Positions 13,866 to 23,565 of a stretch of 64,000 nt of DNA are shown here, one piece after another; the stretch's first letter is position 1, and every line of letters starts with the position of its first letter. A program made the position numbers and the translations under genes. Below the pieces are notes generated by a model that saw only the letters and a program-made list of their open reading frames with translations, did not search any database and was not told the DNA's origin. This stretch comes from Thermogutta terrifontis (GTDB taxonomy: Bacteria > Planctomycetota > Planctomycetia > Pirellulales > Thermoguttaceae), in NCBI RefSeq assembly GCF_002277955.1, contig NZ_CP018477.1, forward strand, positions 3,059,206-3,123,205. The letters run 5' to 3'.

Positions 13866-14463
13866 TTATGGCTGAGGTCTCACGTCTTTTTCCCACCGTT
13901 CCAGCAGTTGACGCAGCTGACCTGCAAAATCCGGCCGGGCCGCAAGCAGGTCCTGGCTCTCACCCGGATCCCTCACAAGATCAAAGAGATACTCCTCCAC
14001 TTTAGCACCCATCCGGTGTCGAAGGTACTTCCAGTCTCGGTGGCGCACGGCCCACCAGGTGGAGTTGCCCCGTCGCGCCCGCCAATACACGGTACGGGGT
14101 ATTGGCGGACGATTCTCTTCAACCAGCTTTAATACATCGATTCCGTCCAGCCGAGATATTCCATCCGGTTGTATACCAGCAACGCGTAAGATCGAAGCGG
14201 TCCAGTCCATGGTCAGACAGACCTGTTCACTCACGGCGTCCGACGGCACGTGTCCCGGCCAGCGTACGATCGCCGGAACGCGGATCCCGCCCTCCCACGT
14301 GGTTCCCTTTCCGCCGCGAAATGGTTTATTGCTGCCGGTCTTTGTGGCCCCGTTGTCGCTGGTGAAAATGACCAAAGTGCGTTCAGCAAGTCCGCATCGA
14401 TCGACCGCCTCGAGGATTTTTTGAATCGCCTGGTCCATCCCTACTCTTGCAAAAAATCGCTGA
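13866..14463 (-). pseudogene. 3' fragment of a sulfatase gene cut by an IS end
   Basis: The remaining frame encodes the C-terminal part of a formylglycine-type sulfatase: FARVGMDQAIQKIL, VIFTSDNGATKTGSNKPFRGGKGTTWEGGIRVPAIVRWPG and DWKYLRHRMG...EEYLFDLVRDPGES. The TSDNG metal site is intact here. The N-terminal half with the CxPxR motif is absent. The frame stops being sulfatase-like just before 14464, where the IS inverted repeat begins, and no matching N-terminal half is present beyond the other end of the IS. An ATG at 14438 (MDQAI) could still start a short protein but no ribosome-binding site is evident. Loss by IS insertion followed by deletion is the simplest reading. Confidence 0.75.
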
Positions 14464-15443
14464 GTTCACCTTTTGCACTTTACGCCGCGAGATTGATGAG
14501 GTTTTCCAGGAGTTGGAACATTTTTTTCGAACCCCTTCTGCCCAGGCCAGACGCAGAAATTCGCTGTTGTAAACTCAGGCGTTTGAGCGCGCTCAGCATG
14601 TCGGCGAACGAAGGACGGGACTTCCGCGTGTACCAAGGCGGGATCCGTAACCTCGCCTCGCGATGACCTTCCGAAACGTACCAATGGACAATCAGCGTGT
14701 AAAGCAACATGGCCATGGGAGCCGTGCGCTCCACCGCCCGCTCGCTCCATCCTTGGGGCTCTTCAAATCCCAGGTACTGCTTGCTGTCATGGAAGGTCAC
14801 TTCCACACTCCAGCGCATGGAATACCATCTCAGGACATCTTCCGCCCTTGCCTCGGCAACCGTGGAATAGAACGCTTCCCGACCGCGTCCTCCGGACAAA
14901 GCCTCCACGGCAACGATTTTCACCGGTCGTTCGGGGACTGCGTGCAGCCGGGCTTCGGCCTCGGCGACCCGCGCGGTTTGGGTCCGACCATACACCGACA
15001 GCTTGATCTGCCGACCTCCCTTGGACAGCATTTCTTTGGGCGGAGGCAGCTTCTGACCCCGACGACGAGGACGGCCGGGGCGACCAGGCTTGTGAGGTGG
15101 TGGGGCCTCGTACAGCCGGGCATCCAGTGTGGTGCGGCTGGTCAGGTCGCAGTTGGGTGGCAACAGGCCCAGGATACTTTGCCCACCATAGGTGGAATCT
15201 CCCACCAGGTGAAATCGCAGGTTGGGAAACCGGCTGCACAGCAGTGTGAGTCTTCGACGGTTAAATCCTGGCTCGATCTGGAGCGACGGCTTGCAGAATA
15301 ACCATGATTAATGTAACAAGTTGCATCGGGAGGCTCCATGCTGACGGCTGGGGATATGTTTTGGCTCGCCTCCTGTGGCGATTTGCAGGAGGCTCTCCTT
15401 TTTTGCCAAGACCAGTTTTCAGTCAAAAAGTCCAAAGTTGAAC
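14464..15443 (-). mobile_element. Internally deleted IS701/IS4-like insertion sequence
   Basis: The left end GTTCACCTTTTGCACTTTA matches the inverted right end GTTCAACTTTGGACTTTTT (complement of 15425-15443), so both terminal inverted repeats remain. The element is about 980 bp and holds only the C-terminal part of a DDE transposase. No target-site duplication is obvious, which agrees with loss of flanking DNA. Confidence 0.65.
14480..15304 (-). pseudogene. Truncated DDE transposase (IS701/IS4-like)
   Basis: The frame is open from about 15304 (after a TAA) and ends at 14480, about 274 codons. It contains FHLVGDSTYGG, which holds the second catalytic Asp of a DDE enzyme, a basic Pro/Arg-rich linker, and the region RWSVEVTFHDSKQYLGFEEPQGW that carries the catalytic Glu in this superfamily, followed by ERTAPMAMLLYTLIVHWY. 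The N-terminal domain and the first catalytic Asp are missing, and there is no credible start codon with a ribosome-binding site (the first ATG is near 15205). The element cannot transpose by itself. Confidence 0.8.
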
Positions 15444-15633: not shown

Positions 15634-17076
15634 CTATTCCTGCGGTAAAAGCACATCCACAACCCTGGCCACAATTTCATAGTTGTTTTCTCTGTTGTTC
15701 GAAAAGCCGCGAAGAAAGCATCGTATACGCTTTACATCACCTCCCGTGCGTGGGTCCAGCACCACAAGGTCGCCATCACCGTTTAGCCGCAAGCCAATAG
15801 TCATGGCTTCGTCCACATTCACTGCGTGATTGACCCACCAGACCGGATTCTGCCCTTCGTTTTGCCAGAACGCGGTGAAACTCTGGGGTTCGTTGGCGAC
15901 TCGCTTTCCTTGAACGACAATACCATCCTTCACTAATTCGATCCTCTCAATGCTTGCTATGAGCGGATGGTCCCAACGTCTCACCACTAGTTTTTTTCGC
16001 CAATCAATGTGCATGATGTGATTCTTGCATCCAACAATGATTGTTCGCCCATCAGATGTCAAACGCCACGGTACGTCGTCGCTACCCTTCAGAAGAGAAA
16101 GAGAACTTCCGTCAAGCTGGCCGATAAGATTTCCAGAGGACGCATCCCAAAAACACCACAGTGGACTTGCATCGTTGTCTTCTGGTTCTTCTTTATCATT
16201 TGCAGCTGGCGTTGTAAATGATATGCGAGTCCCTTCAGCTTTCGCTGCTAGAACTTTTCCGGTTACGTCAAATTGAAACTCGCGAAAATCGTCAAAGCGG
16301 TCGTTGCGCGGCATTGTGAGCTTGTATCTGCTTACTTTGTCTCCGAATTTAATGATTTCGAGTAATCGGAGTCGATAATTCGAGTACACGAGCAGATTAC
16401 CTGGTCCAAACGCAAATCCGTAGGCCGCGACTCCCCATGTGGTCCCATTTTCTAAAGTGTGCACGGAACCAAAACCATCAAATCCGCGACACGCGATATA
16501 CTGACCATCGACTGAAACACTGACTTCATACAAAGGGGGCAGTGGTACACCTAAAAAAGCATTAACATACTTTAACCTTTCGACACTTAGTACATGGACG
16601 ATGCCTGTATCGAGGCCTGCCAACACCAGTGTCTTGCCGTCTTTCGAAAACACAGTCATGCACTTTCGTCCGGGGGAAACCACCGGCCGTATTTGCTGCG
16701 CTTGAGGCAGGTCACATAGAGCTGATACGGCGTTACCGTACCAGAGCCACGCGTGACTTCCTGTAGGACTTAGTTGAAAGTCGTGTATCGCAAGAGGAGT
16801 TTCACCTTCAGAATCTGTCTCTAGCGAAACATCCTGTGATTGAGAATCGGTATCGTTGCAGGGAGCGAAAAAAGCATGTATTTCCGAAGCATCTCCATTC
16901 TGAATGAAGGTTTCGGCGATTCGTTGGGCCTGAGACTGTTCCGATGGTAGAGCAGGACCACCATCATAAGAGAAGCCTTTGCAGAATACGATATTCTGAA
17001 AACTGATGGCGAACGCCAACGTAAGTGGCAGCCAAGCAGCACCCGCGATCAGATGGCCATGTAAGGGAAACATCAT
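15634..17076 (-). CDS. Exported beta-propeller (WD40/YVTN-like) protein
   Basis: The product has about 480 residues from ATG 17076 (a second ATG follows at 17073; GGTGAG lies just upstream). The N-terminus has a signal peptide (LIAGAAWLPLTLAFAISFQNIVFC). The body holds repeated blades with phrases such as LSPTGSHAWLWYGNAVSAL, FSKDGKTLVLAGLDTGIVHVLS, VDGQYIACRGFDGFGSVHTL, LTSDGRTIIVGCKNHIMHIDW and LNGDGDLVVLDPRTGGDVKRI, the S-x-D-G-x-x-L/I pattern of WD40/YVTN propellers. No catalytic motif is seen. It is the last gene of the low-GC trio with the serpin and the caspase-like protease, and might supply an interaction surface for them; this is inferred only from position. It reads like a local paralogue of the serpin N-terminal propeller segment. 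Confidence 0.7.
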   Translation of the reverse strand: MMFPLHGHLIAGAAWLPLTLAFAISFQNIVFCKGFSYDGGPALPSEQSQAQRIAETFIQNGDASEIHAFFAPCNDTDSQSQDVSLETDSEGETPLAIHDFQLSPTGSHAWLWYGNAVSALCDLPQAQQIRPVVSPGRKCMTVFSKDGKTLVLAGLDTGIVHVLSVERLKYVNAFLGVPLPPLYEVSVSVDGQYIACRGFDGFGSVHTLENGTTWGVAAYGFAFGPGNLLVYSNYRLRLLEIIKFGDKVSRYKLTMPRNDRFDDFREFQFDVTGKVLAAKAEGTRISFTTPAANDKEEPEDNDASPLWCFWDASSGNLIGQLDGSSLSLLKGSDDVPWRLTSDGRTIIVGCKNHIMHIDWRKKLVVRRWDHPLIASIERIELVKDGIVVQGKRVANEPQSFTAFWQNEGQNPVWWVNHAVNVDEAMTIGLRLNGDGDLVVLDPRTGGDVKRIRCFLRGFSNNRENNYEIVARVVDVLLPQE

Positions 17077-17227
17077 TGACTCACCGTCCGTTTTGGGCAA
17101 GGTTCACGATGTCTGAGCCCATACCCACGTTCTTGCGCAGACGTCAAACTCAGCTCGTACTCATAGGAACGCAGCATGCATTTAAGGTTTTTTGGTTCTC
17201 AATGAACGCAAGCTCCGAGAGAACGGG

Positions 17228-19336
17228 CTATTGACGTGGGTTGCTGGAACCACGGGGATCCACGACCACTCCGCAAAACAGAATGATGCCAGAGTAACGG
17301 TGGCGAATAAGGAAGATGAACGGTCGGTCCACGGTTATGGTTTCCTCTGCGTGTTTTATCCCCAACGTCACGCCAGTAGCAACTGTTTGTGCGGAAGCTC
17401 GCAACTCCCTCTGATTTACTCCCACCTGTGTCTGTTGAAGAACGACGTCTAGGGCAATGCTTTCACCTTCCACCATTTTTGAAAAGTCTGCCTCCTCAAG
17501 CTCAAAGGCCCGTCGCATACCGGCTGCTTTCAACAATTCCGCTACAGGACATTGAGCCGCGACTTCAAACAGAGGGAGAGTCAGTTTCACGTTCTTCCAT
17601 TGAAGCCTGGTGTCAAGCAGGCTGCAAAGTTCTGAGAATCTGCTGACAACGCCGGAGAGACACTCATCGACACGCTGTTTCGGATCTGGCAACAGAATTA
17701 CGAGGTTCAAACCATAATGTCGCGTTGGAAGTTCGACGGCTGTTACGTGGAATTCACCCAGTCTTCCTACTAACGCCGGAACAATCTCACTCATCATGTC
17801 AACCGCGATGTGGTTATCCGGTGACACGTAAAAGGGCCTGGTCAGCGTTCCGGAAAACTCTTCCATCCAGGGGTACCGTATGGCTAACGAATTGAGAATG
17901 ATCCATCGTGTGAGAGGAGTGATTTTGAGGTCCGTTTGTTTAAAAGTTGGCAGTAACGCAGAAAGCAGTTTCTCGTCCTGCAGGTTGCCCTGCATCACGT
18001 GTGCGAGCCCGCTGTTCGTGATGTAACGACGATATTCCTCCCGAAGACGGCAACGCACATCGAGGCAAAAGATGGTCGCTTCCTGATTTAATAAGGGAGC
18101 AACCTCGGTGGGAACGTACGTTTTAATTCCAGATTCTTCCCAGTGTTCCCAAACAATTCTTATTGGTTCCCGGGAAGTGTTGAATGTTTCAACAACTTGA
18201 TCCAAAGAAGGCCCTGACACACCGTTAAGCTGATTAATTAAGTCACCCTCTCGCAAGGTCTCTAAAGGCGGGTCCAAAGTCTTCTTCAGTCGCGAAATCA
18301 CCACCTTCCCATCTTTCTCCGCGAGCTCGATACCCTGAGTATCGCACCAGCGACGAAAGGGTGTTCGCATTTCGATCCCAGCCTGGGAAAAGGCTGAGAA
18401 CATTTCCTGCTCGATTTCACGCTGTAAATCAATCTTAAGCAATTGGGCAAACTCTCTTTTTGTTTCACCACTGCTTCCCAGGCCTGCCGTGACCAGAACA
18501 TTGACAATGCCTGCCGGAGAGAAACACTGATTCGTTTCCCGAAACTCCCAGTGCGGCCAGAGGCTGGCCACCAAATGCTGACTGACTGCAGCCCAGCGCC
18601 GCCAGCGTAAAGAATCTTCATATCCTGTGGCTACCCGACGTGCAGTTTTCATCGCCTTCTGCATTTCCGCGTCGGTAAGTTGCGTGACATTTGCAATGGC
18701 TCCGTCCTTCCATTTGACGGTAACGCGGACCCCTGGCTGGAATAGAAGGCCAAGTTGTCCATCTTGACTAAGCGGTTCCATACCGGCAAACGTAAGAGTA
18801 TCCACGATAGTCGGCGGAACCTTCAAAGCCACGCTGGGCTCGGTGGCGGGAGCTGAGGGCGGTTGATTCTGGGTGGTAGCAGGCGTTGGTGAAGCTTCCC
18901 CTTTCGAACTGTCGTCGCGGGAAGGTCGCTCTCCCGTGGTCGGTGACGTTAGCGCTGAGGGCCTACTAAGTGCCTCCCGCACAGCGTCCAGAAAGATTCG
19001 CCACGAATAACTTTTGACTTCTTTTCCAGAAGAAAAAATAGAAACAAACGGACGATCAACGTCGTCACTTGGGTTAGCCCAGACTGCAACAAGCTGTCGA
19101 TTGTCTTCGCTTACCGCTACAAGCGGTGCATACACCGGCGCGGTCCAGAGGAGACTGCCGGAGCGGGTGACACACGCCACCTGGCCACCACCACCCTCCT
19201 GCGTTACCGGTTCCACGAAAAGAACTGCACGACCGTCCTCGGACAACTGGTAATATGGGACTGGCTGTATCTCCTCCGCACCCGAACTCACGGCAACGCT
19301 CATGCAGAGCAGCGACCAAAAGGCCAGAGAGTGCAT
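17228..19336 (-). CDS. Exported serpin with N-terminal accessory region and inserted PDZ-like domain
   Basis: The 702-residue product starts with a signal peptide (LAFWSLLCMSVAVSSGA) behind a strong AGGAGGT site. Residues 25-115 look like propeller blades; 130-170 are Pro/Ser/Thr-rich. The serpin fold starts near 250 (TNQCFSPAGIVNVLVTAGLGSSGETKREF) and continues with TRWIILNSLAIRYPWMEEF, TRPFYVSPDNHIAVDMMSE and the C-terminal PFIFLIRHRYSGIILFCGVVVDP. Residues about 325-402 form an insertion with PDZ features (LREGDLINQLNGVSG). The reactive-centre loop spans about 640-665. Counting 11 residues back from the conserved Pro of RPF places P1 at Lys661. The hinge RELRASAQT is Ala/Ser-containing but not a perfect consensus, so an inhibitory mechanism is likely but not certain. 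It lies downstream of the caspase-like protease, its possible target. Confidence 0.85.
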   Translation of the reverse strand: MHSLAFWSLLCMSVAVSSGAEEIQPVPYYQLSEDGRAVLFVEPVTQEGGGGQVACVTRSGSLLWTAPVYAPLVAVSEDNRQLVAVWANPSDDVDRPFVSIFSSGKEVKSYSWRIFLDAVREALSRPSALTSPTTGERPSRDDSSKGEASPTPATTQNQPPSAPATEPSVALKVPPTIVDTLTFAGMEPLSQDGQLGLLFQPGVRVTVKWKDGAIANVTQLTDAEMQKAMKTARRVATGYEDSLRWRRWAAVSQHLVASLWPHWEFRETNQCFSPAGIVNVLVTAGLGSSGETKREFAQLLKIDLQREIEQEMFSAFSQAGIEMRTPFRRWCDTQGIELAEKDGKVVISRLKKTLDPPLETLREGDLINQLNGVSGPSLDQVVETFNTSREPIRIVWEHWEESGIKTYVPTEVAPLLNQEATIFCLDVRCRLREEYRRYITNSGLAHVMQGNLQDEKLLSALLPTFKQTDLKITPLTRWIILNSLAIRYPWMEEFSGTLTRPFYVSPDNHIAVDMMSEIVPALVGRLGEFHVTAVELPTRHYGLNLVILLPDPKQRVDECLSGVVSRFSELCSLLDTRLQWKNVKLTLPLFEVAAQCPVAELLKAAGMRRAFELEEADFSKMVEGESIALDVVLQQTQVGVNQRELRASAQTVATGVTLGIKHAEETITVDRPFIFLIRHRYSGIILFCGVVVDPRGSSNPRQ

Positions 19337-19495
19337 TTACCACCTCCTTCGCATACCGCACCGAGCCGTTCTAACTTCGCACATTTCGGAAAGGGGGCTG
19401 TGGGTGGGTACTCCACCACACAGCCCCACAACTACGCTTTTGCCAGACAGGATACCCCACAGCCGACAATAACTTAACTCCTCAGAAACACTCTT

Positions 19496-20947
19496 CTACT
19501 GCTGCCCTTTTCCCTGTCCTGGCCCAAGAAACTCTCCACTACCACTCACGCCTTTTTCTTTTTCTTGCTTGCCCTCCTGAATCTTTTCGCCACTCGCTTC
19601 TGTCCCTGAACCAGCGTGACTCTTTTCAGCTTTTGGCTTTTTACTTGCCATCAATTCCTCCCATTCTTTTTGTATATCGCTCCGATCATTTCCGTCCTTG
19701 TCCTTTGCTAATAATAACCAAGGATAAAACTCGGCAAAATCTTGTGTCAGCATTTCTTCTTTTTTCAAATACTCCCACGCGCTAAGGATCGCCACGCGTG
19801 CGGACTGGTCGAGAAAGCCTATAACATCACTGGCGTCCATCTTCACTACTGAATCTGTGCTTTGATCATTTAGTTCCTCTTTTTCCTTCAAATTCTCCCA
19901 TGTCACCTTCTTAACAACTTCAGAAAGCGTCCGCGGTTCCTTCACGCCTCCAATCATTTTTTCCACATCCTGCAACTCCAAAGCAAGGTTCGTGCAGTCA
20001 TTGGGGATCTTTTCTTCTTCAAAAGCAAACGGCAATTGCGCCACGGTGACAAAAGTCTGCGTAAACGGCAATTCCTTCCTCTCGTTCGTAGCGACTGCGC
20101 TTTGATCGCGCGCCACTGAATTGATGTGCCAGCGCCCGGCGCCCCTGGCCAAAATGATGTCCAACCGCGTGTACCACCACAGTGGCACCGCCCTCGTTAC
20201 GATGGAAAACCTAAGCTGTCCATCAGGAAGACGCAATGGTGTGCGAACCTTTTCTTCTCCGTGTCTACTTGCCAGGAAACTTTCTACCGGGAAATCTTGG
20301 GCGCATGAGTCACTTACAATGAGGCTGAGCCTCGGGTTCTTCCTCGTGATTGTGTTAGTGAGGTCATCGGCATAAAGAAGATCCTGTTTGCGCTGAATAC
20401 TCTCAACAGGACCCTTTAGGAACCAACAGAGTCGCTCCCCCTTAGAAGTATCAGTCCCCCCGTGAGACAAAACATACACGAACACGGCGTCGTCACGTCC
20501 AACAGGCAGGTTGTTCACGTAACTGATGATATCCTGTGGCGTCACGTCCCGTCCTGTAAAGATCTTAAAGCTCCGGAACTTAGTCTTTTCGTGTTCTTGG
20601 ACGAGTTTGTCAATCAGAGCCCTGTTGTTTTCCTCTGATTGTGCCTCGACGCTCTTGTACGGTGTTACCAGGAGCCATTTCTTCACCTGTGCAACATTGT
20701 GTTCCCAAATCTCTTTATCGGTTTCCGGGTCTTTTACGCCCCCCATGATCACAATGACATGAGCCGGGATGATCGCGGGGGTTGCCTGCACAACTCGTCC
20801 CCGACAACAGCGAAATAGTCGCGACAGAATTGGACAGTGATGGGCAGCCTCTGAGTGCGAGAGCGTACCACTCCAGAAGAGCAGGATCACTCCCGCCAGG
20901 GCTACGAGTTTCCGAAACATGGTTGTCGGTTTCGGGGTTACGCGCAT
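19496..20947 (-). CDS. Exported caspase-like (clan CD) cysteine protease
   Basis: The start at 20947 gives 483 residues and is preceded by AAGGAG. Residues 10-35 form a signal peptide or anchor (FRKLVALAGVILLFWSGTLS). The catalytic core begins near residue 63 with the strand HVIVIMGG. The catalytic His162 is in FVYVLSHGGTD and Cys215 in LIVSDSCAQDF, the HG and DSC motifs of clan CD (caspase, metacaspase, legumain). Their 53-residue spacing fits caspase-like enzymes. After the core, residues 240-430 form a helical region of unknown fold and the last 45 residues are Gly/Lys/Glu-rich and disordered. Substrate preference is unknown; DSC agrees with metacaspase/orthocaspase types, which cut after Arg or Lys. 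The serpin gene starts 160 bp downstream on the same strand. Confidence 0.8.
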   Translation of the reverse strand: MRVTPKPTTMFRKLVALAGVILLFWSGTLSHSEAAHHCPILSRLFRCCRGRVVQATPAIIPAHVIVIMGGVKDPETDKEIWEHNVAQVKKWLLVTPYKSVEAQSEENNRALIDKLVQEHEKTKFRSFKIFTGRDVTPQDIISYVNNLPVGRDDAVFVYVLSHGGTDTSKGERLCWFLKGPVESIQRKQDLLYADDLTNTITRKNPRLSLIVSDSCAQDFPVESFLASRHGEEKVRTPLRLPDGQLRFSIVTRAVPLWWYTRLDIILARGAGRWHINSVARDQSAVATNERKELPFTQTFVTVAQLPFAFEEEKIPNDCTNLALELQDVEKMIGGVKEPRTLSEVVKKVTWENLKEKEELNDQSTDSVVKMDASDVIGFLDQSARVAILSAWEYLKKEEMLTQDFAEFYPWLLLAKDKDGNDRSDIQKEWEELMASKKPKAEKSHAGSGTEASGEKIQEGKQEKEKGVSGSGEFLGPGQGKGQQ

Positions 20948-21073: not shown

Positions 21074-22314
21074 GTGTTCCGTCACAGGCAAATTTTGGGA
21101 TTGTGCTAGGTGGGTGGCATGGGATAGGATCGGTGGTCGTTTTCGTTCCCTTTTGCCAAGGAGGGTTGCCGTGCGAAAGAAGTATATTGTCCGGCTGACC
21201 GAGGAGGAACGTCAGAAATGTCAGGAAATCATTCGCAAGCTGAAGGGGACCAGCCAGAAGGTCCGTCGCGCTCAGATTTTGCTGAAGGCGGACGCGGACG
21301 GTCCAGCTTGGACGGACCAACGCATTGCCGAAGCGTTCGGGTGTCGGCGGCAGACGGTAGAGAAGATTCGTCAGCGTTTTGTGGAACGGGGTTTTGAGGA
21401 GACGCTGGAAGGGAAGAGCCGGTCGGGGCCACCAGCGAACAAGATTCTGGATGGGGAGGTGGAAGCGAAAATCATTGCCACCCGTTTGGGGCCGCCGCCT
21501 GCGGGTTACGGTCAGTGGACGCTTCGCCTCCTGGCCCGTCGGTTGGTGGAGCTGAAAGTGGTGGAATCGATCAGCCACGAGACAGTACGCCGGGCGCTAA
21601 AAAAAACGAGATCACGGCGCGGAAGATTCAGTACTGGGTGATACCGCCGGAGGCGGATGCGGAGTTTGCCGCTCAGATGGAAGAGGTGCTGGAAGTGTAT
21701 TGTCGGCCGTATGATCCGTTGCATCCGGTCGTTTGCATGGACGAGCAGCCGGTGCAGTTGGTGAAGGAAGTGCGGCGTCCGATTCCGGCGACGAGAGGGC
21801 ATGCCCGGCGAGTGGATTACGAGTATGAACGAGCGGGGACGGCGGCGATCTTCCTGTTTTGCGAGCCCTTGGTCGGCTGGCGTCAGGCGACGGCGCGGGA
21901 ACGTCGGACGAAGAGCGACTGGGCCACGGAGGTGGCGGCGCTTTTGGACGGGCGTTACGCGGACTGTGAGCGGATCACGCTGATCTGTGACAACCTGAAC
22001 ACGCACACGAAGGGGGCGTTTTACGAGGTGTTCCCAGCGGAGCGGGCTCGTCAGTACGTTCGTCGCATTGAGTTTGTTTACACGCCGAAACACGGCAGTT
22101 GACTGAACGTGGCGGAGTGCGAGTTGAGCTGTTTAACCCGGCAGTGCCTGGCGGGGCGTCGCCTGGGGGAGCTACGTCTTCTTCAGGAGGAAATTGCGGC
22201 GTGGTCGGTAGACCTCAACGCTCGGCAGCGGGGTGTCGACTGGCAAATGACCGCGGAAGATGCCCGCTGCAAACTGAAGTCTGTCTATCCCAAAATTATC
22301 CTGTGACGAAGCAG
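21074..22314 (+). mobile_element. IS630-family insertion sequence, complete ends
   Basis: The left end GTGTTCCGTCACAGG (from 21074) and the complement of the right end CTGCTTCGTCACAGG are inverted repeats that continue into AATTTTGGGAT on both sides. TA dinucleotides flank the element at 21072-21073 and 22315-22316, the target duplication expected for IS630/Tc1-type elements. Length is 1241 bp. Confidence 0.85.
21171..22306 (+). pseudogene. IS630-type transposase with frameshift and in-frame TGA
   Basis: GTG at 21171 with AAGGAGGG upstream starts a frame with a helix-turn-helix domain (WTDQRIAEAFGCRRQTVEKIRQRF). At 21599-21606 a run of eight A residues separates this frame from the frame holding the DDE domain (VVCMDEQP, ICDNLNTH). 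A -1 slip on A AAA AAA joins them as LKKNEITARKIQYW, which matches IS630 proteins. The conserved HGSWLN is then broken: a TGA replaces the Trp codon at 22100-22102, and the frame resumes as LNVAECELSCL to 22306. The slip could be programmed, but the nonsense codon makes this copy very likely inactive. Confidence 0.8.
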
Positions 22315-22679: not shown

Positions 22680-23099
22680 ATGAAACGTCAACGTAACTGG
22701 GGATTGCTGGTTGGTTCTGTGGCCATGGCCACGTTAGCCTGGTTGGCTCTTTTGCAGGGACGCACGGCACTAGCCGAAGATGATGGTAAGTGCCCGCGTT
22801 ATGCGGCGATCGCGCTCGACGATTTCACAGGGAGTTATGGCTATGCCTACAATTATTCGACCCGCAAGGAAGCGGAAGAGGCCGCAATTCGCTGGGCGGG
22901 TCGCAATGCACGGGTCATTTTGAGTACGACAGCCCCATATTTCGCGTTTGCGCGTGGGCCATTGGGAGGCTGGGGCACGGGAACAGGTAACACCTACTGG
23001 GAGGCTGCGACAGCCGCCCTCGTGAACGCGCGAAAGCACGCCCTGTCGCCCCAGCTTAAGTTTTGTCGTTACAACGGCCCTGACACGACTCCGCATTGA
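22680..23099 (+). CDS. Secreted DUF4189-like protein
   Basis: The 139-residue product has a clear signal peptide (MKRQRNWGLLVGSVAMATLA... ALAEDD). The mature part reads YAAIALDDFTGSYGYAYNYSTRKEAEEAAIRWAG, which matches the DUF4189 pattern in which a WGAIAxD...G.YGYS...A...A...C repeat is formed by a stress- or matrix-associated small fold. Here the cysteine pairs usual in the family are reduced: CPRY at the start of the mature part and LKFCRYNG at its end could form one disulfide. The ATG is eight bases after GAGGAGGT. No function is known for the family. It sits just outside the IS630 element. Confidence 0.65.
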   Translation: MKRQRNWGLLVGSVAMATLAWLALLQGRTALAEDDGKCPRYAAIALDDFTGSYGYAYNYSTRKEAEEAAIRWAGRNARVILSTTAPYFAFARGPLGGWGTGTGNTYWEAATAALVNARKHALSPQLKFCRYNGPDTTPH

Positions 23100-23565
23100 A
23101 TTGGCTGGGTATCATCAGACCGCCCCCTAATCACGTGCATGTCCGCTGTGATTGGCAGTGACGGTGTCCCGATCCTATAAAAGGAATTCGTGTTTTCAAT
23201 TGATGAGTGGGTGTGTTCCGTGTCTCGCCTGAAAACACGGTGCACACCCATTACCTGTTTCGGTATGTAGGACGCTTTGATAGAGCGATTTTCATTCCAG
23301 CAAGAGCAAAAGATCCCGCCCACTATCTCTGTAAGGCCAACATGGACGAGTTGGGTGGCCCGAGCCGAAGCAACGTCTCGGCTTGGAAAGACATTGGCAT
23401 GCCTTGGTCGGTGGTCTCTACCAAATGACTGGCTTGGTTAACCTGGTTATAATAGGGGTGGTTTTCGGGGGGCTGCTCCTGGGTTCCGGTGGAACAAGTA
23501 TGCCGTTGTTACCCGCCGTCCAGAGCGCGAATGACCAGGGGCTGGTTGACGAGGGGGGACTTGTC
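23100..23565. other. Leader region of the kinase gene
   Basis: About 466 bp before the preferred kinase start. It holds the strong hairpin at 23209-23249. From 23425 it is also open in the kinase frame and would encode a hydrophobic stretch (LVNLVIIGVVFGGLLLGSGG), so an upstream kinase start with a signal-like segment cannot be excluded. Confidence 0.4.
23209..23249. promoter_or_regulatory. Long hairpin in the leader before the kinase gene
   Basis: GGGTGTG (23209-23215) pairs with CACACCC (23243-23249) and CCGTGT (23218-23223) pairs with ACACGG (23235-23240), separated by a 2x2 internal loop; the apical loop has 11 bases. No T-run follows on the plus strand, so it is not a normal terminator. 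It may be an RNA regulatory element or a palindromic DNA repeat. Confidence 0.4.

Follow-up and report, generated by a model that had tools for sequence, protein, structure and literature searches.

Serpins that hold caspase-fold proteases in check have been described in eukaryotes, where AtSerpin1 inhibits the Arabidopsis metacaspases AtMC9 and AtMC1, and CrSERPIN inhibits the green-algal metacaspase CrMCA-I (PMC10609998, excerpts). The physiological targets of many prokaryotic serpins are described as unclear (PMC8233489, excerpts), and in our judgement the same can be said of what regulates many caspase homologues in bacteria. Here we describe a protease-serpin gene pair of the planctomycete Thermogutta terrifontis, which lies with a third gene at positions 15,634 to 20,947 of a 64,000-nucleotide stretch of NZ_CP018477.1 (hereafter the window), within a genome that forms a single contig of 4,810,751 bases. 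On balance, we favor the view that this pair represents a highly diverged copy of a module found in related bacteria, wherein an exported, Arg/Lys-cutting caspase-like protease would be produced along with the suicide inhibitor that restrains it. A conserved operon in which the bait residue matches the enzyme offers a direct and testable answer regarding both serpin targets and caspase regulators.

Linkage of caspase and serpin genes in relatives

Of 119 genomes in the family to which the window belongs, 46 contain serpin genes (PF00079), which are above the cut-off in 44. The linkage sample comprised the 66 above-cut-off serpin genes besides that of the window, as counted from the list of matches; the surroundings of all 66 were fetched, some shortened by contig ends, and sub-cut-off matches in G007, G022, and G033 were not counted. 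Adjacency of the two gene types exceeds chance: 21 of the 66 serpin genes have a co-directional gene matching a caspase profile no more than 1.5 kb away, where 0.09 to 0.79 linked pairs would be expected if each genome had one to nine caspases (P < 1e-23, phylogeny ignored). The caspase gene is upstream in 20 of the 21 linked loci, with gaps of −91 to +229 bp in 18 of those, and at the remaining locus (L039) a contig end truncates the upstream gene, which groups with the caspase family in the clustering. The sequence-only reading had proposed an enzyme-inhibitor pair that should recur in other genomes, and the pair is indeed conserved among relatives, with order and strand fixed.

Most of the caspases that went into the alignment and the profile were serpin-linked, so profile-based searches lean toward linked cases. 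With the window protease alone as query, 27 non-self places were recovered in the family, eight of which (at five loci) lie beside serpins found by the window serpin alone. Beyond the family, a genome of the same order but of a different family (G494) carries a caspase gene followed after 18 bp by a serpin gene with Lys-Ser in its loop. A scan of named records with one peptide pattern confirmed 159 stretches, and among the best 80 of these, which make up 78 loci, 14 loci have a serpin, all titled as planctomycete; these appear to lie on contigs already covered and are not independent cases.

Linked serpins are also distinguished by their bait residue. With P1 placed 17 residues from the hinge Glu and distinct loops counted, P1 is Lys or Arg in 19 of 21 linked serpins versus 4 of 39 unlinked serpins of the family (Fisher 7e-10). 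This count covers 60 of the 66 genes, with L099 and L217 to L220 dropped for unreadable or partial loops, along with a contig-edge serpin fragment (G113) that has a caspase about 1.5 kb on. When 13 unlinked serpins whose upstream DNA is shorter than 1.5 kb are dropped as well, the unlinked proportion is 4 of 26 (2e-7). No register from P7 to P6′ other than P1 is enriched to a like degree in linked serpins, and a small P1′ residue (21 of 21 linked versus 28 of 39 unlinked) is less telling. Among 34 unlinked serpins from outside the family, representing the 30 best-scoring loci, ten have Lys or Arg at P1. Common descent is a genuine caveat to this comparison; on a serpin tree computed with the loop left out, linkage changes at least nine times.

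Composition of the operon-like cluster

Many linked loci look like operons consisting of a DUF4384-like gene, a gene for a caspase with C-terminal PDZ domains, the serpin gene, and in many cases a caspase paralogue that is catalytically dead. The first of these encodes a protein of about 340 amino acids and was found by neighbor clustering in 13 of the 19 linked family loci, directly upstream of the caspase gene in 12; a profile search adds a fourteenth locus (G076), giving 14 of 19. Its likeness to DUF4384 is weak, appearing below the cut-off in two of seven members scanned. Such genes occupy 25 places in 19 of the 119 family genomes, and 21 of these places share a contig with a caspase of this type, as do 10 of the 14 that are left when the 11 rows used for model building are subtracted.

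PDZ domains, numbering from one to about seven, are present in all nine linked family caspases scanned (of 19), whereas the domain scan reported none for the G494 caspase. A dead caspase-fold paralogue is the downstream neighbor in nine of the 19 linked family loci. Its catalytic His is replaced by Lys in six cases, by Pro with concurrent loss of the Cys in one, and by Glu in another whose alignment is unsure, and in the last case the Cys is replaced by Gly. All five dead paralogues scanned carry PDZ domains. On a caspase tree of 120 rows, prepared without duplicates and weaker non-planctomycete rows and with the dead copy of L068 below threshold, dead copies occur in three places, comprising a starred group of eight rows plus two copies. 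Those two group with other linked caspases at a support of 85, which is not starred in this short search.

Residues that line the S1 pocket bear on cleavage preference. Asp365, Asp462, and Glu500 are held responsible for the preference of MALT1 for a basic P1 residue, and Asp95 and Asp211 are among the S1 residues of TbMCA2 (PMC4357240, excerpts). All 20 intact upstream caspases (19 from the family plus that of G494) have an Asp two positions before the catalytic Cys, and 17 of the 18 that are readable have an Asp in the alpha-1 column of the alignment. We take MALT1 Asp462 and TbMCA2 Asp211 to lie likewise two positions ahead of the catalytic Cys, and in our reading by position, without superposition, the alpha-1 column would be equivalent to Asp365/Asp95.

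The serpins of these loci have a further peculiarity, in that a C-terminal tail of the form G.GG..[EQN] ends 8 of 21 linked serpins but none of the 39 unlinked ones. Within a set of 8,559 open reading frames (ORFs), many of them non-genes, this tail occurs only in those serpins and on duplicate contigs; a looser pattern flagged the unlinked serpin L051, which has a different Gly-rich end. It is speculation on our part that the tail might be held by the PDZ domains of the caspases.

Several loci depart from the simple arrangement. At L072 (1922-13148, minus strand), caspase and serpin genes alternate three times, wherein the middle caspase is dead and the first carries six to seven PDZ stretches. 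At L221 and L222, a pair made up of an intact and a dead caspase occurs with a DUF4384-like gene, and no serpin was found in the fetched stretch. L034 and L232 are probably one locus with a DUF4384-like gene, two caspases, and a serpin, because the two contigs (G097:C5 and C21) end in an identical caspase sequence. Small Tyr-rich proteins recur in five linked loci (for example L079 3006-3578 and L091 61-909), and the two that were scanned match PDZ models.

The most likely reading of these features is a mechanism in which the canonical loci would co-produce an exported caspase-like protease and a suicide serpin baited with Lys-Ser. The protease would attack the Lys-Ser bond of the serpin reactive loop and then be trapped as a covalent acyl complex, such that it would be active only where or when it is in excess of, or separated from, the serpin. 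A role in tuning or docking the active caspase would fall to the dead paralogue, with PDZ contacts serving as a further control. We give only low credence to a more elaborate proposal, namely an extracytoplasmic caspase circuit with three side-by-side controls: a suicide serpin with matched bait, a dead paralogue that arose repeatedly, and PDZ-to-tail docking, the docking parts perhaps being exchanged in the window, where the serpin has a PDZ-like insert and the protease a Gly-rich tail.

The window pair and its surroundings

By its catalytic residues and its fold, the window protease is a caspase-like protein of clan CD, family C14. His162 and Cys215 occupy the catalytic columns of the caspase alignment, and the best solved structures for the protease model are those of MALT1 (Foldseek E 6.9e-6; VIA Z 13.3); caspases also match. 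The model has a mean predicted local distance difference test (pLDDT) score of 65, with blocks of 75 to 95 over fragment residues 71 to 200 (protein residues ~101 to 230). Thus, the clan CD assignment and the two catalytic residues named in the sequence-only reading are borne out by both alignment and fold. Profile evidence consists of a sub-threshold C13 hint from Pfam and a caspase hint from NCBIfam (NF047832, E 0.0012) below its cut-off; Pfam C14 gave no match at E up to 1, and no Pfam match to PDZ was found. The catalytic chemistry appears from the sequence to be intact. The Asp two positions before the Cys is kept and the alpha-1 column holds Asn, and from these S1 positions, one of the two being Asn, the protease would be expected to cut after Arg or Lys.

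The neighboring gene encodes a serpin, as originally proposed on the basis of sequence and as now indicated by both profile and fold matches (Table 1), the latter obtained with a low-confidence model (pLDDT 54.7). It is the only serpin found in the genome by the PF00079 search. Its hinge (QRELRASAQT) differs from the E-x-G-T-E-A-A-A-A-T of relatives, with Glu at P15, Leu at P14, Arg at P13, and Gln at P9 in place of Gly-Thr-Glu and small residues. The 17-residue count gives Leu658 as P1, unlike the Lys or Arg of nearly all linked relatives. Lys661, which had been predicted to be P1, falls at P3′ by this count, but might still serve as P1 if the loop is longer, because loop length and P1 position can shift. 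Antithrombin provides an example of a longer reactive loop. The proposed PDZ domain of this serpin is likewise unproven, since the insert gives a Pfam E of 0.052 (14.4 bits versus a cut-off of 23.2) and nothing significant with the PDZ profile of relatives.

These residues bear on whether the window serpin is an inhibitor at all. Given that the hinge consensus and an in-register P1 Lys are lost, binding to the protease, or cleavage by it, is more likely for this protein than efficient trapping, and the window copy looks degenerate. We consider it slightly more probable than the converse that the serpin is non-inhibitory and serves the protease as substrate, decoy, or scaffold, as its hinge and its P1 Leu suggest; the shiftable loop, which leaves a role for Lys661, argues the other way, and sequence alone is no measure of inhibition. 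The earlier idea of enzyme and inhibitor is supported at the level of the family, where linkage is accompanied by a P1 Lys or Arg, although the comparison corrected for phylogeny was not significant and many of the related caspases lack a neighboring serpin. It falters at the window serpin, with its non-consensus hinge and Lys661 at P3′.

The case for a far-diverged copy of the module has to be weighed against several observations. The window copy lacks PDZ domains on the protease, an adjacent dead paralogue, and a DUF4384-like gene, the model of which has no match anywhere in the genome. Its protease has Asn where the linked caspases nearly all have the alpha-1 Asp. Its serpin passes none of three hinge checks based on the inhibitory consensus (P15 Gly; P14 Thr, Ser, or Val; P12-P9 small), which are passed by 21, 21, and 20 of the 21 linked and by 39, 38, and 38 of the 39 unlinked family serpins, and in the two trees the window proteins have very long branches whose placement lacks support. 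The module itself also has exceptions. Caspases often occur without a serpin, with 27 of 59 non-window places (E < 1e-20, from a list that runs down to E 3.9e-4) adjoining a serpin by hand count. Outside the family, at least one pair, that of G494, was found among the matches listed for 392 genomes of the phylum, where scoring covered the few best candidates of each genome. Its Lys is P2 by strict count. When linkage and P1 Lys were compared with correction for phylogeny (79 serpin rows, without out-family rows of odd locus number and with the G494 loop scored as Lys despite its P2 position), four supported independent pairs were obtained, about three of them in the expected direction (median p 0.25); with only four such pairs on supported branches, the sign test cannot reach significance. 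Because the window pair has few module features, a broken hinge, and long unsupported branches, we regard it as probably related to the module at a distance rather than as a typical member.

The base composition of the locus speaks to how the pair came to be there. Guanine-plus-cytosine (GC) content is 0.508 for the trio versus 0.580 for the window outside the stretch between the flanking insertion sequences (ISs), and GC at third codon positions (GC3) is 0.545, 0.531, and 0.463 for the three genes, where 25 other long ORFs of the window have a mean of 0.650 (sd 0.034, minimum 0.592). The trio is thus GC-poorer than its neighbors, as the sequence-only reading had noted, and most clearly so in GC3. 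None of the three proteins has a match in three draft genomes of the same genus. The low GC3 and this absence fit acquisition of the stretch. Elements were correctly placed on both sides, an IS701 remnant and an IS630-type element with ends matching at 18 of 20 positions. Since these belong to different families, the description of an IS-bounded module stands as regards the flanks only, and a composite transposon, which needs the same IS on both sides, is rejected. Among 15 plasmid records with relatives of the window serpin, none matches over 80% of the query at any one place.

The window pair might instead consist of a divergent caspase and a serpin in decay that were joined independently on an island between ISs, outside the history of the module. 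Long unplaced branches, the lack of PDZ domains, dead partner, and DUF4384-like gene, and the absence of both genes from the three same-genus drafts are what this origin would produce, but it leaves the module-like order and strand of the pair to coincidence. In addition, 8 of the 27 places matched by the window protease are serpin-linked caspases, and the G494 pair also lacks a PDZ match, so that we judge an independent origin rather doubtful. The main alternative to the proposed mechanism, in which linked serpins guard against foreign trypsin-like proteases from a gut host or competitors and share an operon with the caspase as parts of the same surface response, is improbable: P1 Lys suits trypsin as well, one linked locus (L150) has a record title that reads goat colon, and miropin is a bacterial serpin that acts on host plasmin (PMC8233489, excerpts), yet a P1 Lys or Arg is found in 4 of 39 unlinked serpins of the same family, the neighbor is repeatedly of the caspase type with acidic S1 positions, and the G.GG..[EQN] tail is restricted to linked serpins. 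We therefore retain the far-diverged copy as the preferred account of the window pair, in which the caspase gene lies directly upstream of the serpin gene on the same strand, as in relatives.

The third gene fares differently. Its propeller match is weak (31.6 bits versus a Pfam cut-off of 305), so that the proposed beta-propeller identity is not confirmed. Because this gene has no relatives in the 119 family genomes, it adjoins the pair but probably belongs outside the conserved module. A search of its own genome likewise found no relative apart from itself, and the propeller was rejected as a module part. All three ORFs are co-directional, as described earlier, and lie on the minus strand, and their products have N termini that resemble export signals when judged by eye.

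Table 1. Positions of features in the window
Feature	Position	Strand	Details
Protease gene, apparently exported caspase-like (clan CD) Cys protease	19496..20947	-	483 aa; His162/Cys215; ATG 20947, stop 19496
Protease catalytic (caspase-fold) domain	20039..20755	-	Alignment with relatives and model pLDDT
Divergent serpin gene	17228..19336	-	702 aa; N-terminal extension and insert; PF00079 E 9e-45, best Foldseek E 6.7e-25 to serpins
Reactive-center loop region	17330..17413	-	Serpin residues 642-669
PDZ-like insert (unproven)	18161..18334	-	Serpin residues 335-392; sub-threshold Pfam match
Propeller-like, apparently exported protein gene	15634..17100	-	480-488 aa; start TTG 17100 or ATG 17076
GC-rich hairpin without U-run	19394..19427	-	Between protease stop and serpin start
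IS701-family transposase remnant	14480..15205	-	NF049999 173.5 bits (cut-off 170)
IS630-type element	~21081..22307	+	Transposase frame split; DDE_3; terminal inverted repeats 18/20

The hairpin in the protease-serpin spacer is a possible attenuator that would set the protease:serpin ratio. The whole spacer has an unexceptional z of −1.33, and the hairpin is missing from the terminator list; terminator and promoter scans gave values close to the shuffle mean. A known defense system was considered and ruled out, as PADLOC matched zero families for seven proteins (E up to 0.01).

Other genes are found near the flanking ISs. The transposase of the IS630-type element lies in overlapping frames, and the element is thus either decayed or frameshift-dependent. 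A sulfatase C-terminal fragment (13866-14438, minus strand) ends beside the IS701 remnant, and this gene seems truncated because its N-terminal half was not seen there by eye. On the other side, a small DUF4189 protein that is apparently exported is encoded at 22680-23096 (plus strand; PF13827 E 6e-11), near a kinase-like ORF, identified by eye, at 23383.

Comparison with known systems

Several described systems share parts with the loci examined here. Staphopain-staphostatin and SpeB-Spi are bacterial pairs in which a Cys protease and its inhibitor are encoded together, with papain-type enzymes and inhibitors that are not serpins. MALT1 paracaspase has the best-matching solved fold for the window protease and has acidic S1 positions partly in common with it, whereas the window protein has the Asp two before the Cys but Asn in the alpha-1 column, is bacterial, and is apparently exported. 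Orthocaspases and pseudo-orthocaspases also have a caspase fold, cut after positively charged residues, and include dead variants (PMC6426788, excerpts). Those variants carry Tyr/Ser or a Gln-Cys dyad, whereas His is replaced here by Lys, Pro, Gln, or Glu and/or the Cys is lost, and the text of that paper contains neither "serpin" nor "planctomyc". The main text of the T. terrifontis genome paper (PMC5673643) likewise contains no occurrence of serpin, caspase, or peptidase.

A bacterial caspase-serpin operon was not found in the titles and abstract starts of the papers listed in searches of the open-access literature, a scope that mostly leaves aside subscription papers and preprints, and the earlier remark that no bacterial cassette of this form is known to be described is in agreement with this search. 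Hence the components are known, as is the relation of serpins to metacaspases, and the bacterial operon and its composition appear to be undescribed in the literature searched.

The dead paralogues recall c-FLIP, a dead paralogue paired with active caspase-8 (PMC6426788, excerpts), which operates in a human pathway, whereas the bacterial pairing is one of gene neighborhood. Their repeated occurrence would represent a bacterial parallel to pseudo-caspase regulation. The AtSerpin1 and CrSERPIN systems are the closest in kind, as they too set a serpin against a caspase-fold metacaspase (PMC10609998, excerpts). They are eukaryotic, whereas the operon, the PDZ domains, and the dead paralogue belong to the bacterial loci, where inhibition is a proposal. 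If the proposed mechanism is true, then the serpin control of caspase-fold proteases reported in a plant and a green alga extends to bacteria.

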